Below are positions 12,971-61,626 of a stretch of DNA of 64,000 nt, piece by piece. The position numbers and the translations under genes were made by a program. The first letter of the stretch is position 1, and each line of letters begins with the position of its first letter. The DNA is taken from positions 1 through 64,000 of IMG/VR virus record IMGVR_UViG_3300017746_000007, one strand, 5' to 3'. The notes below the pieces were generated by a model that worked only from the letters and a program-made list of their open reading frames with translations, did no database searches and was not told where the DNA came from. Source of the stretch: a virus.

Positions 12971-13533
12971 GATGATGAAGTGTAGTGACTTGTATTAAAA
13001 CTAACCATAATTCTATCTTGATCGCTCTCATTTACTCTACTACCATGTTCCAACCAACTTGGAAAGAGATAGAGATGATTCTCTCTTATCGGTAGATCAA
13101 ATTCGTAGGCATTATAGTCGGAGTAATCTTCATGTAACTCGCACATTCTATATGGTTGTAGTGGTGAAACAAAATAAAGATCACCACTATTTTGTGGTAG
13201 ATCTAGATAAAGTGCTCCACTCACTACACTATATTCATGTCGATGTCGTCTTGTATATCCACCAGTAGGTAAAACATTATACCAGGTATTGTCAATTTGT
13301 ACAGGTTTACATCGAAGTTTGTTAACATAATCCTGAAGACAATCTACGAATAATTTACCTACGGGAAGAGATTCTTCAATAGAAAAAGGATCCCATCTGC
13401 CATGACTAGACTCTCCAGTAACAGATAAATGGTGGAATCCTTTCTGTCCCTGTTCACCAATTATTTGTTTAAATTTAGAGAGAGTAGACCCCGAAAGGTC
13501 ATACTCTTCAACTAGAACAGGGAATAACTTCAC
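12967..13533 (-). CDS. 2OG-Fe(II) oxygenase-like protein, HxH type
   Basis: 188 residues. Layout WYNVLPTGGYTRRHRHEYSVVSGALYL gives His97-Arg-His99; distal His163 (LEHGSRVNES) and Arg174 (DRIMVSFN) follow. It fits the phage oxygenase-like group with an SGAxYL block and an FPSWLEH block. Acts in the cytoplasm; target unknown. Start overlaps the DUF262-HNH stop by 4 bases. Confidence 0.8.
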   Translation of the reverse strand: MKLFPVLVEEYDLSGSTLSKFKQIIGEQGQKGFHHLSVTGESSHGRWDPFSIEESLPVGKLFVDCLQDYVNKLRCKPVQIDNTWYNVLPTGGYTRRHRHEYSVVSGALYLDLPQNSGDLYFVSPLQPYRMCELHEDYSDYNAYEFDLPIRENHLYLFPSWLEHGSRVNESDQDRIMVSFNTSHYTSSS

Positions 13534-15014
13534 TTATTACTCTTCTCCATGTTTGGACCTGCAAGAGCAAGTTGAGCATTCTCCATGATAGTCTGTCCAC
13601 CTTTTGAGTGTGGGATAATGTGATCGATGTGGACTTTATCACCGTTCTCAACATCAGTGATTGGGATAAGTTCACCAGTCAGAGCACACTTACCCTGTTG
13701 ACGAGACCATAGAATACGACGCCATTCCTGAGGGAAATAACGAGTCTTATCCTTAGTGACAACAATACCACGTTCTTTCAACATGGGGATGAACTCATTA
13801 CGGATAAGTTCCAGACGGTGCTTCATCTTGTAATTGGTGTTAGCACCATATAGATCCTTGAACTTACAGGAAGAACGACCAGTCTCGAACCTTGCATCTT
13901 CCTCACCCCAATATTTACCAACCAACTCAAGATAACACTCAAGGAAGGATTCATAGTCCAGTTTGTTGTTATCCAGGCGGTGAACTTCATCACCCTCGGC
14001 ATAGATTTCAACCAGAGCACAGTAAAGATCAATCAGACGATTACGAGCACCACCAAGTTTGGTGAAATCACCGACATACTTTACCATCGGCATGAAAGTA
14101 GATTCAAAGAACTTCTTGAAGTCTTTGAAGTTGTTCTCTGCCTCAGAGTTTGAGTTGTAATCAGAGTCAAGAGTCTTGGGTGAGAAGGCATCAACCTGAC
14201 CACGGAAAGTGTAGTAGTTCAGGAGAGATGCAAGATATGCACAGAACTTGTATCGTTCTGCATTAGACTTAAGAACAAAAGTCTTCTTCTCATTGTCAAG
14301 TACAAAGCGATCCTTGTACTTATAGTTCAGTTCACGAATACTTGTGCAGATCTCAGATGTGCTGCAGTTACGAAGTTCCTCAGTGTTGAGGTTCTCGTTA
14401 TCATTCAGACGTTCAAACAAATCACGACGTTCTTCACGATTGAGACCAGAATACTCGATCCATGCAATCGTTTGGTTGTCGATAAACTCAACCAGAGCAG
14501 GAAACTCTTCACAACATACTTCATAAGTGAAGTAGTTTGTCTTGTTCAGAGTGTAGCGAACCAGATCACCTTCACCAGTAGGGATCACATAGTTTCCAGG
14601 TTGAAGAGCAATCTTATTGTCGAACCAATCCATAATGGTATCGGAACGATTGCCACCGTCGATGTGAACCCAGTTGAAATCTTTGGAGATGAACAACTTC
14701 TGGTGATCAATGAATTGCAGATCTTGAGGAACACCAGATGACAGAGCAATCGGTTCAAGAATCTCTACCGATTTCTCAAGGTTGATGAGGTGAAAGATGG
14801 AAGTATCAGAGTAACCTTGTGCAAGGGCACTCATATACTTAGACTGTTTATCAGGAATGAAACGCCAAACAGACTCACGTTGTACCGTGCAATCGCGACC
14901 AGTTTGTTTGACGATTCTAGAAAAATCTTTGAGTGTAGCGAATTGTGTGACCTTCTGCATCACCTTGCGGGTGGAGAGATCTTTTACTGCGACTTCTGTA
15001 ATTTTGCCAGACAT
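13530..15014 (-). CDS. DUF262-HNH protein (GmrSD-like nuclease candidate)
   Basis: 494 residues. The N-terminal half has the DUF262 signature (VHIDGGNRSDTIMDW, close to the DGxxRxxT motif of ParB/Srx-fold nucleotide hydrolases) and a preceding ESVWRF. The C-terminus has an HNH nuclease: CALTG, then HIDHIIPHSKGG, then NAQLA and NMEKSNK. This two-domain order is that of GmrSD-type enzymes that cut modified DNA, usually bacterial anti-phage systems. In a phage it could attack host or rival DNA. Start set at MSGKITEVAV, after a sigma-70-like promoter at 15078-15106. Confidence 0.8.
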   Translation of the reverse strand: MSGKITEVAVKDLSTRKVMQKVTQFATLKDFSRIVKQTGRDCTVQRESVWRFIPDKQSKYMSALAQGYSDTSIFHLINLEKSVEILEPIALSSGVPQDLQFIDHQKLFISKDFNWVHIDGGNRSDTIMDWFDNKIALQPGNYVIPTGEGDLVRYTLNKTNYFTYEVCCEEFPALVEFIDNQTIAWIEYSGLNREERRDLFERLNDNENLNTEELRNCSTSEICTSIRELNYKYKDRFVLDNEKKTFVLKSNAERYKFCAYLASLLNYYTFRGQVDAFSPKTLDSDYNSNSEAENNFKDFKKFFESTFMPMVKYVGDFTKLGGARNRLIDLYCALVEIYAEGDEVHRLDNNKLDYESFLECYLELVGKYWGEEDARFETGRSSCKFKDLYGANTNYKMKHRLELIRNEFIPMLKERGIVVTKDKTRYFPQEWRRILWSRQQGKCALTGELIPITDVENGDKVHIDHIIPHSKGGQTIMENAQLALAGPNMEKSNK

Positions 15015-15077
15015 AATAATAATCCTTGTAGGGACTGTAGTGTGTGTCATCGTGGGGAACCCCCGTCAGACAAATAT

Positions 15078-27807: not shown

Positions 27808-27880
27808 TGGGAGATGTGGGGATCGAACCCACCTTATCCGAATTATGAGCTCGGTGCATTCACCAGATTGCTAATCTCCC
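27808..27880 (-). tRNA. tRNA with CAT anticodon (elongator Met or Ile2)
   Basis: 73 bases. Acceptor GGGAGAT/ATCTCCC with discriminator A, anticodon loop CTCATAA, T-loop GGTTCGATCC. A normal G1-C72 pair argues against initiator tRNA. Met and lysidine-modified Ile2 cannot be separated by eye. No CCA is encoded, as usual in cyanobacteria. Confidence 0.9.
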
Positions 27881-27884
27881 TAAA

Positions 27885-27956
27885 CTCCCCTTCCTGGGAT
27901 CGAACCAGGGACCAAACGATTAACAGTCGTTCGCTCTACCGCTGAGCTAAAGAGGA
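27885..27956 (-). tRNA. tRNA-Asn (GTT)
   Basis: 72 bases. Acceptor TCCTCTT/AAGGGGA with one G-U pair, D-arm AGCTCAGCGGTAGAGC, anticodon loop CTGTTAA, T-loop GGTTCGATC. No encoded CCA. Its 5' end overlaps the stop of the gene at 27947-28138 by 10 bases, so tRNA processing would trim that mRNA. Confidence 0.95.
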
Positions 27957-28138
27957 TTGTCTTTTTTATGCGTCTCTAGAAGATATTCAACAGTGTTTGC
28001 TACATCATTCATAGCATCACGAAGCATAGGTTGTTGACCAGAAGTTTGTTCTACTTTAGTAGTGCCATTCTTAAACTCCTCGCAAAGAGTCCAACGCCAT
28101 TGACCCATACTATTAGAATACCAAAGATTGATCTTCAT
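27947..28138 (-). CDS. Small hypothetical protein (63 aa)
   Basis: MKINLWYSNSMGQWRWTLCE... to THKKDNPL. The LWYS...QWRWTL opening is familiar from cyanophages. Its last codons and TAG stop are part of the tRNA-Asn acceptor and D-arm sequence. Lies between the tmRNA and the tRNAs in one minus-strand RNA operon. Unknown role. Confidence 0.75.
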   Translation of the reverse strand: MKINLWYSNSMGQWRWTLCEEFKNGTTKVEQTSGQQPMLRDAMNDVANTVEYLLETHKKDNPL

Positions 28139-28156
28139 GGAACCTCTAGATTTAAA

Positions 28157-28174
28157 GGGGGCATTACACCCCCC
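28157..28174 (-). terminator. GC-rich hairpin after the tmRNA
   Basis: GGGGGTGTAATGCCCCC followed by TTTAAAT on the minus strand. The T-tract is short; it may instead be a 3' processing or stability hairpin of the tmRNA coding piece. Confidence 0.45.
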
Positions 28175-28179
28175 AGAAC

Positions 28180-28418
28180 TACTTGGTTAACAAGGCTAGT
28201 TTAACCCCGATCTCCCATTTAGGCAGTCGCGAGTTCGCGAGTGCGGGAGAATGCAACGATGTTATTCGCTGCGGTGTCAGATGTTTTTGCATCTATGGTT
28301 TGCTTATCCAAGCAGGTTTCAGTCACATTCCGTGTACCCTGTCGAAACCATGGCACCCCCAAGTAATGGAGGTGAGGGGAATCGAACCCCTGTCCAGAAT
28401 GTCGATGATGCAACCTAT
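28180..28418 (-). ncRNA. ssrA: Circularly permuted, two-piece tmRNA (ssrA)
   Basis: Transfer-messenger RNA rescues stalled ribosomes and tags the unfinished protein. The acceptor piece comes first (28367 to about 28418) with T-arm AGGGGTTCGATTCCCCT and 3' end CACCTCCA. After 6 bases (28361-28366) the coding piece begins at 28360 with GGGGGTGCC, whose first 7 bases pair with CACCTCC to make the acceptor stem, followed by GGTTTCGACAGG. P2 can form from GGAATGT and ACATTCT. The tag frame ends at a TAA at 28219-28221 and encodes ANNIVAFSRTRELATA, close to cyanobacterial tags (ANNIV.F.R...). The outer limits are approximate. Confidence 0.85.
28219..28269 (-). other. tmRNA tag-peptide reading frame
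   Basis: Codes for ANNIVAFSRTRELATA then TAA. The first residues match host cyanobacterial tags; the end (ELATA) is unlike the usual small hydrophobic -AA ending recognised by ClpXP, though it still ends in Ala. The exact resume codon is not certain. Confidence 0.7.
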
Positions 28419-28433
28419 TCCACAAAAGTGGAA
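28418..28433. repeat. Processing-type hairpin between tRNA-Thr and tmRNA
   Basis: TTCCAC/GTGGAA with a 4-base loop, immediately after the tRNA-Thr discriminator base and before the tmRNA acceptor piece. Likely a spacer hairpin in the joint precursor. Confidence 0.5.
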
Positions 28434-28505
28434 AGCCCACAGTCGGATTTGAACCAACGACCTACGCTTTACAAAAGCGTTGCTCTACCACTGAGCTATG
28501 TGGGC
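28434..28505 (-). tRNA. tRNA-Thr (TGT)
   Basis: 72 bases. Acceptor GCCCACA/TGTGGGC, D-arm AGCTCAGTGGTAGAGC, anticodon loop TTTGTAA, T-loop GGTTCAAATCC, no encoded CCA. Decodes ACA, a codon favoured in this AT-rich phage. Confidence 0.95.
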
Positions 28506-59489: not shown

Positions 59490-59545
59490 GGGATGAACGA
59501 CTCCGTTCCGCGACTTACTTGCGTCCCCCTAGAGGGATGAACGAC
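59490..59545 (-). promoter_or_regulatory. Leader with repeated GTCGTTCATCCC
   Basis: The transcript expected from 59553-59581 begins with GTCGTTCATCCC (59534-59545), continues through GGGGGACGCAAG and GTCGCGGAACGGAG, and repeats GTCGTTCATCCC (59490-59501) immediately before the ATG. Duplicate 12-mers bounding a 32-base spacer suggest a regulator-binding or RNA-control element. Confidence 0.55.
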
Positions 59546-59552
59546 AGGTCCT

Positions 59553-60108: not shown

Positions 60109-61626
60109 TTAGGATTTAGAGATCACTTTATTTCCTGTAACAATTGTATCCATTTCACTCTTACGAAAGACTCCAATAACATCATTAACCCTTCCTACAA
60201 TTGGTTTTTTGTTGACATTTAATGAGGTATTGAGAAGCATTGGAATACCAGTTAACTTATCGAACTCAGTTATTAATCGATAATAATCTTCATTTTGTTC
60301 GGAAGTAACAGTTTGATGCCTACACGTCTTATCTTCGTGTGTAATTGATGGAAATCTGTCTGGTTCCAATACATCAGTCACATACAACATATAAGGTGAA
60401 GGTCCATTCCAATAAAAATATTGTGATACTTTCTCTTCCAATATAGAAGCACCAAAAGGTCTAAAAGGTTCTCTCTTCTTTACCTTCTTATTGATAATGT
60501 CTTTCCCGTCTTCGAGATCGGGTCTCATAAGGATACTTCTGTTGCCTAATGCTCTAGGACCGACCTCTCCGTGACCCTGATACCACCCCACAATCTCACC
60601 CCTAGCAAGTCTCTCCGCAGTGTCCTTTATGACCTGCTGAGATGGTCTCTGAGAGGGTGCCTGGTCCGTCTGCCAGTAGGGGAAACCATCCCGAGGGAAA
60701 GGTGCTTCGCAGAAGTGTTTTCGGAGGTATTCAACGCATCCTAGACTCAATCCCTGGTCATTTGCATGAGGAGGAATCACTAAATTAGGAATATTATCCT
60801 TCAGAACTTTATTGATGATTGTATTCTGAGCAATACCACCACTATATCCAACAATATCGTCGGGTTTGATGAATTCTCGGAAATGTTTCAAATATACCTG
60901 TTCACTGTGTTCATGGGCAGTGGCAAGAAAACCTGCCATCCACTGATAGTCACCAAGATGTCTTCTACATTCGTCAAAGTCCCAGACTTTATGGAGATTA
61001 TCAATACCATCAATCAACTTAACTCCAGGACATCCAAGTCTACCGAAAGCTTTTATAGCCATGACTTTGCCTGCAGTATCTAAGTCATGACCCTCTAAAC
61101 CAAATAAATCTCCCATGTAAGACATGATAAATCCAAGACTAGGACTGGGAGTCATGCTAGATCCATATTTTACAGATTCATGTTGACCACAATCCAGTAA
61201 GTAATCCTTTCTCCAAACAGATCGGTACATCCAGTCATCACCAAACCCATCAAAAACAAAATGGACCGTGGGTTCAACACCCAACGGCCAAAAACTCAAA
61301 GTATGAGCGTAATGATGATCAATTCTAATGATTGGGCAGTTGAATCCAAAGTCTCGGAATCCAGTAATTTCAATCTCTTCTTCAGTTTTAGAAACATCTG
61401 TTTCAACTTCTGGATAGACAAAAGTATCCATAGTGATACAAATAGCCTCAACATCCCATGGTTCAACTCCCCATTCATCTAGAATAGAAGTCCATTCATA
61501 AAGACTATCAAAACCATGATGTTTTAATTGAAGAAGTCTTTCAAAAGATGCATATCTAATTTTTTCTCCATCCCAGTAAGTGACATTAGCATCATGAGCA
61601 CATACACGAAGACCCAATAAATTCAT
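60109..61626 (-). CDS. NodU/HypF-type carbamoyltransferase (505 aa)
   Basis: N-terminal MNLLGLRVCAHDANVTYWDG, DHHYAHTLSFWP, VFDGFGDD, then VGYSGGIAQNTIINK, GWYQGHGEVGPRALGNRSIL and REPFRPFGASI. Such enzymes carry out ATP-dependent carbamoylation of sugars or small molecules. Cyanophages often carry one in or near structural or cell-surface genes; the substrate here is unknown, and glycan or nucleoside modification are possible. Confidence 0.9.
   Translation of the reverse strand: MNLLGLRVCAHDANVTYWDGEKIRYASFERLLQLKHHGFDSLYEWTSILDEWGVEPWDVEAICITMDTFVYPEVETDVSKTEEEIEITGFRDFGFNCPIIRIDHHYAHTLSFWPLGVEPTVHFVFDGFGDDWMYRSVWRKDYLLDCGQHESVKYGSSMTPSPSLGFIMSYMGDLFGLEGHDLDTAGKVMAIKAFGRLGCPGVKLIDGIDNLHKVWDFDECRRHLGDYQWMAGFLATAHEHSEQVYLKHFREFIKPDDIVGYSGGIAQNTIINKVLKDNIPNLVIPPHANDQGLSLGCVEYLRKHFCEAPFPRDGFPYWQTDQAPSQRPSQQVIKDTAERLARGEIVGWYQGHGEVGPRALGNRSILMRPDLEDGKDIINKKVKKREPFRPFGASILEEKVSQYFYWNGPSPYMLYVTDVLEPDRFPSITHEDKTCRHQTVTSEQNEDYYRLITEFDKLTGIPMLLNTSLNVNKKPIVGRVNDVIGVFRKSEMDTIVTGNKVISKS

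Follow-up and report, generated by a model that had tools for sequence, protein, structure and literature searches.

The permuted tmRNA of a T4-like cyanophage carries an in-frame extension at the tag start, a predicted hairpin over the resume region and a tail that departs from the picocyanobacterial one

Two-piece tmRNAs have been described in phages before. The available passages of PMC9004378 count 53 of them, 50 marine or aquatic, and name AG-345-P14, which is also among the relatives found here; a tmRNA database of 2025 holds 79 phage sequences (PMC11915505). As a kind, the permuted cyanophage tmRNA is already known from those passages of PMC9004378. The marine-phage examples treated there (Melnitz, the pelagiphages and AG-345-P14), together with those added here (S-CAM1, S-CAM3, S-SSM7 and Sf-FS3), resemble the locus of this study in being phage-borne and two-piece and in that no phage SmpB was found in the records scanned. 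The same passages deal with phage two-piece genes and a riboswitch; a tag extension, hairpins or a tail are not described in them. Phage DS6A and other mycobacteriophages likewise carry a tmRNA, but not one of the cyanobacterial two-piece type, that of DS6A consisting of little beyond a tRNA-like domain (PMC4131195). With the cyanobacterial two-piece tmRNA (RF01851; picocyanobacterial ssrA) the present RNA shares gene order, the tRNA-like domain, the G3-U70 pair, PK1, P5, the 3' hairpin and a tag hairpin beginning ANNIV/ANKIV. It differs in a seven-codon extension of the tag, an added hairpin over positions -4 to +1 of the resume codon, a tail reading ELATA where the host reads APVAA, and the placement of the phage sequences apart on the tree. 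The extension, the resume-region hairpin and the family-wide tail shift are apparently unreported, a provisional judgement based on their absence from the available passages of open papers.

The window, a 64,000-nt stretch of an IMG/VR viral contig of 64,161 bp, contains T4-like genes, gp53 and gp32 among them, and the carrier of the tmRNA is a T4-like cyanophage. Its closest known relative is Synechococcus phage Sf-FS3, isolated on WH8102, whose match covers 49% of the first 25 kb of the window and 38% of the next 24 kb at about 83% identity. Over the tmRNA region the identity is 87%; the Sf-FS3 tag is AKTSDVAANNIVAFSRTRELATA, and the gene order round its tmRNA, which itself carries no annotation, resembles that of the window. 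In the GenBank records of S-CAM1 (L018 1474-1599) and S-SSM7 (L021 1504-1722), small "hypothetical proteins" are annotated over the tmRNA; these are probably misannotations.

Rfam model RF01851 (cyano_tmRNA) matches positions 28158-28450 of the minus strand with 141.6 bits (E 1.6e-38; cut-off 70), RF04321 (tmRNA_permuted) matches 28219-28415 on the same strand with 87.2 bits (cut-off 47), and ARAGORN calls a permuted tmRNA (tmRNA*) at 28128-28456, also on the minus strand. A sequence-only reading had claimed a circularly permuted phage tmRNA, with the acceptor piece 5' of the coding piece, and had proposed a covariance-model search and the permuted mode of ARAGORN as checks; all three results agree with the claim, both Rfam matches lying above the gathering score. 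That reading gave no strand and confined the RNA to 28180-28418, which is too small, the gene extending over about 28158-28433 (Table 1). The acceptor stem it had described pairs at 7/7 positions, including G3-U70, and is followed by A73, so that the alanine identity pair and the discriminator are both present; P2 pairs as it had stated. The 6-nt spacer is there too, but not as a special feature: 6 nt is also the commonest length in hosts, occurring in 65 of the 119 picocyanobacterial genes, which rules out a short spacer as a distinguishing trait. Three tRNAs said to surround the RNA were recovered by ARAGORN (Thr-TGT, Asn-GTT and CAT), on the same strand as the tmRNA. At the junction 28433-28434 tRNA-Thr is directly adjacent to the acceptor piece, and it lies just upstream of the tmRNA in many relatives (L002, L003, L004, L008, L009, L010 and L017). 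Given this arrangement in the window and its relatives, both are probably cut from a single transcript.

Table 1. Features of the tmRNA locus in the window, in the 5' to 3' direction of the minus strand (the whole precursor first).
Feature	Position	Strand	Basis or remark
Permuted tmRNA precursor (ssrA), acceptor piece then coding piece	28158..28433	-	RF01851, RF04321, ARAGORN
tRNA-Thr (UGU)	28434..28505	-	ARAGORN; abuts 5' hairpin of tmRNA acceptor piece
Acceptor-piece 5' hairpin TTCCAC/GTGGAA	28418..28433	-	First helix of RF01851 model
P2, acceptor-piece strand ACATTCT	28396..28402	-	RF01851 alignment
T arm AGGGG-TTCGATT-CCCCT	28375..28391	-	RF01851 alignment
Acceptor stem 3' strand CACCTCC and discriminator A73	28367..28374	-	CCA not encoded; U70 pairs with G3
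Intervening spacer TTACTT, 6 nt	28361..28366	-	Removal in processing predicted
Acceptor stem 5' strand GGGGGTG	28354..28360	-	Stem parse
D-loop segment TGGTTTCGAC	28341..28350	-	RF01851 alignment
P2, coding-piece strand GGAATGT	28325..28331	-	RF01851 alignment
PK1 hairpin TGCTTGGATAAGCA	28301..28314	-	RF01851 model helix
AUAG tetramer, -6..-3 of resume codon	28293..28296	-	Preferred frame-setting signal
Hairpin 1, phage-specific, AGATG-CAAAAA-CATCT	28279..28294	-	Covers -4..+1 of resume codon
Complete tag frame AKTSDTAANNIVAFSRTRELATA and stop	28219..28290	-	ARAGORN; resume position relative to hosts
Seven-codon N-terminal extension AKTSDTA	28270..28290	-	Shared in frame by 95 phage loci (18 or 21 nt)
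Hairpin 2, GCAGCGA-ATAACA-TCGTTGC over ANNIVA	28253..28272	-	Counterpart of host tag hairpin
P5-type hairpin TCTCCC...GGGAGA	28211..28250	-	Contains C-terminal tag codons and stop; RF01851 model helix
3' terminal GC hairpin, then TTTAAAT; terminator-like	28157..28175	-	Fold 28180-28131, -12.4 kcal/mol
tRNA-Asn (GUU)	27885..27956	-	ARAGORN, Rfam; same cluster, downstream of tmRNA
tRNA with CAU anticodon (Met or Ile2)	27808..27880	-	ARAGORN, Rfam; same cluster, downstream of tmRNA

ARAGORN starts the tag at GCA, giving 23 aa. The frame is open, begins with an alanine resume codon after AUAG and ends in a stop; AUAG or AUAA is preferred ahead of the resume codon (PMC4236655). The GCA (28290-28288) stands at the host position, 50 nt after TTCGAC, the GCN resume codon of all 119 host loci lying 51-53 nt after this motif. 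The earlier description of the tag as host-like but altered thus stood at the C-terminus, whereas its N-terminus, placed at GCG 28269, fell seven residues short. The additional codons are common to 95 phage loci among the sequences collected, measuring 18 or 21 nt in 95/95. The 40 distinct 21-nt extensions contain no in-frame stop, and their first codon is always GCN although its second base sits in the loop of the phage-specific hairpin (hairpin 1). Among phages the extension occurs in two phases, AAA-ACA-TCT or AAN-NAC-ATC, which change 8 times on the tree; the one-base shift between them is compensated and ANNIV remains in frame. On the simplest reading of these sequences the extension is translated, and tagged peptides of this phage, beginning at the resume codon at 28290, are predicted to read AKTSD.AANNIVAFSRTRELATA.

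Alternatively, translation could resume at GCG 28269, giving the tag ANNIVAFSRTRELATA, with the 21 nt upstream left untranslated, as a spacer that hairpin 1 folds out of the way. An ANNIV start would agree with the host tag sequence, and the hairpin would bring this GCG closer to PK1. Yet the GCG lies 71 nt from TTCGAC, as against 51-53 in hosts, and is preceded by neither AUAG nor AUAA; moreover, the extension keeps a length that is a multiple of three despite its one-base internal shifts, and the upstream position is occupied by GCN without exception. A start at GCG 28269 therefore seems unlikely. As to the origin of the extension, its first 13 nt resemble the tag start better than shuffled sequences do in 17 of the 95 loci, examples being ANNIDTA (in ANNIDTA-ANNIVAF), AKDIDTA, AKNIEA and AKNIAP. 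This suggests that it arose by tandem duplication of the first seven tag codons. When the window's own AKTSDTA was compared with shuffles no duplication signal was found; it has drifted too far to show one, and for this phage the case runs through its relatives.

All 95 phage loci retain 4 or more of the 5 pairs of hairpin 1, whereas none of the 119 hosts reaches 3. The extended-tag cyanophage tmRNA group, as defined in the present analysis, is characterized by the extension and this hairpin, and the window has both. The arms occur in three forms, AGATG/CATC(T or G), ATCTG/CAGAT and GACG/CGTC. Among 35 distinct sequences pairing is 100% and the covariation score 0.355, against 0.080 for shuffled sequences, and slid versions of the hairpin all score far worse. 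The match between the arms cannot be explained by the encoded amino acids, because most of the 5' arm precedes the coding region. The stem sequence changes 5 times on the tree, with only 2 supported independent pairs; the arm swap thus represents few evolutionary events, and the support for the hairpin comes mainly from its universal retention plus those swaps. Hairpin 2, the counterpart of the host tag hairpin, is fully paired in 36/36 distinct sequences and covaries at two third codon positions, GCA occurring with GTT and GCT with GTA; agreement is seen in 6 supported independent pairs of the tree (p 0.03). In hosts, the tag hairpin begins at the resume codon itself (GCGAAC/GTTCGT or GCTAAC/GTTAGT), and the bases upstream are predicted to be unpaired. 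The mean predicted probability of being unpaired at positions -4 to -1 is 0.02-0.22 in phages and 0.79-0.96 in hosts. In other bacteria, the five bases 5' of the resume codon touch SmpB and set the frame (PMC3968760), and four of these five are predicted by folding to be base-paired in the extended-tag phages. A likeness exists with helix m, a helix proposed near the resume codon in the tmRNA messenger domain, which would need melting to expose U85 and A86 (PMC1168896). Helix m is weakly supported according to that source, whereas hairpin 1 shows compensatory changes and lies within an extension missing from hosts.

At its other end the tag also departs from the host pattern. Comparison with 118 complete host tags upheld the earlier claim that the ELATA ending differs from the host VAA ending: 117 of these tags end in VAA and 1 in IAA. 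The window's tag, ending LATA, lacks the hydrophobic-Ala-Ala C-terminus, which is a property of host tags and does not define the family. Among 118 complete phage tags, VAA accounts for 37, ATA for 24, VAV for 18, VTA for 12 and ATV for 11, the rest ending otherwise. On the host side this comparison draws on picocyanobacterial genomes, chiefly of Prochlorococcus, and on the viral side on phage contigs; one of the viral scans was queried with AANNIVAF, which inflates the proportion of tags with the extension without selecting for the tail. Most phage tags have a penultimate Thr or a C-terminal Val, against the invariant AA of hosts, and 40 distinct tail sequences occur in the 118 phage tags as against 7 in hosts. 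On the tree, 28 changes of the final three residues fall within the phage part, and one RNA body may carry differing tails, as in L015, which is S-CAM1-like with TRELATA. A changed tail is not obligatory, given that certain tmRNAs of the phage family retain VAA or a host-like ending. Outside the cyanobacterial type, the phage tags encountered mostly finish with AA (LAA, IAA or MAA).

This variability would also be expected if the tmRNA were a decayed or purely inherited host copy without function, its tail and extension being products of drift. Several observations argue to the contrary. RF01851 scores above its cut-off in 6/6 related records scanned, the acceptor stem stays paired through sequence changes among the tmRNAs compared, both hairpins show compensatory changes, and the tag frame is always open. 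In addition, the hosts split from all phage sequences on the tree with a support of 98/99, a split that favors an old phage lineage over recent capture. Loss of function appears very improbable.

A ClpP or SmpB encoded by the phage and partnering the altered tag was considered as well. This candidate was rejected: neither protein was found at E <= 0.001 in 18 related records, nor ClpP in the record of the window, the latter being a fragment and several of the former reaching 190-250 kb. Host SmpB, AlaRS, processing enzymes and proteases are thus presumably used. In E. coli, the last three residues of the tag set the rate of degradation, the variants AAV and ASV being degraded more slowly than LAA (PMC9097571), and by analogy the phage tails may slow Clp proteolysis. 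The sequence-only reading had suggested that the phage routes stalled peptides differently; the altered tail to which it pointed is widespread and variable in this phage family and absent from the 118 host tags, and such rerouting may occur. A possible, tentative addition to the main reading given below is that, owing to the altered tail, tagged proteins escape Clp proteolysis, allowing rescue without the cost of proteolysis, or are sent to another protease. The prevalence of a penultimate Thr or a C-terminal Val and the E. coli precedent speak for such an effect; the 37 phage tags that still end in VAA and the failure to find a phage ClpP in the records scanned speak against it.

The sharing of host SmpB, to be expected if no phage SmpB exists, also allows a different function, in which the RNA would mainly compete with host tmRNA for this protein and so change or dampen host trans-translation. 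This has been proposed for the DS6A tmRNA, made of the tRNA-like domain only, and an RNA of that kind inhibits tmRNA (PMC4131195; PMC11915505). A competitor, however, would need no messenger part, whereas this RNA has kept its messenger part entire, and the frame and hairpins there are under selection; a role mainly in competition is improbable. The reading preferred here is that the RNA is a working two-piece tmRNA that rescues ribosomes with host partners, to which a probability of about 0.8 is given. It is favored because the tRNA-like domain is intact with G3-U70, because P2, PK1, P5 and an open tag frame are present, and because the phage family is large and conserved. Ribosome rescue in infected cells is, judging from these sequence features, the most likely role. 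The sequence-only reading had gone further in suggesting that the phage manages such rescue while the host is being shut down, which may hold.

A working tmRNA of this kind would act as follows. Host tRNA-processing enzymes would cleave a transcript that starts at or before tRNA-Thr; the 6-nt spacer would be taken out and CCA added. Host AlaRS would charge the RNA, host SmpB (smpB not having been found in relatives) would bring it to stalled ribosomes, and translation would resume at GCA 28290, adding AKTSDTAANNIVAFSRTRELATA. The conserved extension at the tag start would fold into the new hairpin over the resume region, which, at lower confidence, may hold or protect that region until the ribosome opens it. 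The tail, which has departed from the invariant host VAA ending, may, again at lower confidence and by analogy, retune (probably weaken) Clp proteolysis. Bolder, and doubtful as it stands, is the proposal that cyanophages evolved a distinct tag module, in which a hairpin-gated, extended resume region would alter frame-setting by SmpB and a non-canonical tail would uncouple rescue from rapid Clp proteolysis during infection.

Other elements were observed at various distances from these tmRNAs. Related cyanophages have wcaG RNA motifs (RF01761) at a distance of a few kb from their tmRNA (L006 6892-6988; L015 4367-4462). In the window, a glutamine riboswitch (RF01739) scores below threshold at 59496-59546 on the minus strand (26.2 bits; cut-off 35); the available passages of PMC9004378 tie such riboswitches to marine phages. 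A 506-aa ORF at 13530-15050 (minus strand) has an HNH_4 (Cas9-type) nuclease domain at its end, and the matching region of Sf-FS3 encodes an HNH Cas9-type protein. A carbamoyltransferase (PF16861 and PF02543) is encoded at 60109-61626, also on the minus strand.

One consequence of these findings is practical: in extended-tag phages, a tag deduced by eye from its host-like core can lack seven residues. The two covarying hairpins, one of which spans the nucleotides that in other bacteria are contacted by SmpB, are relevant to the presentation of the resume codon, a question still open in trans-translation. With VAA or IAA in 118/118 hosts and VAA in 37/118 phages, the fate of phage-tagged proteins becomes directly testable. 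Records of phage tmRNAs usually go no further than presence or absence; in this case selection on the messenger part itself is seen across an entire phage family.
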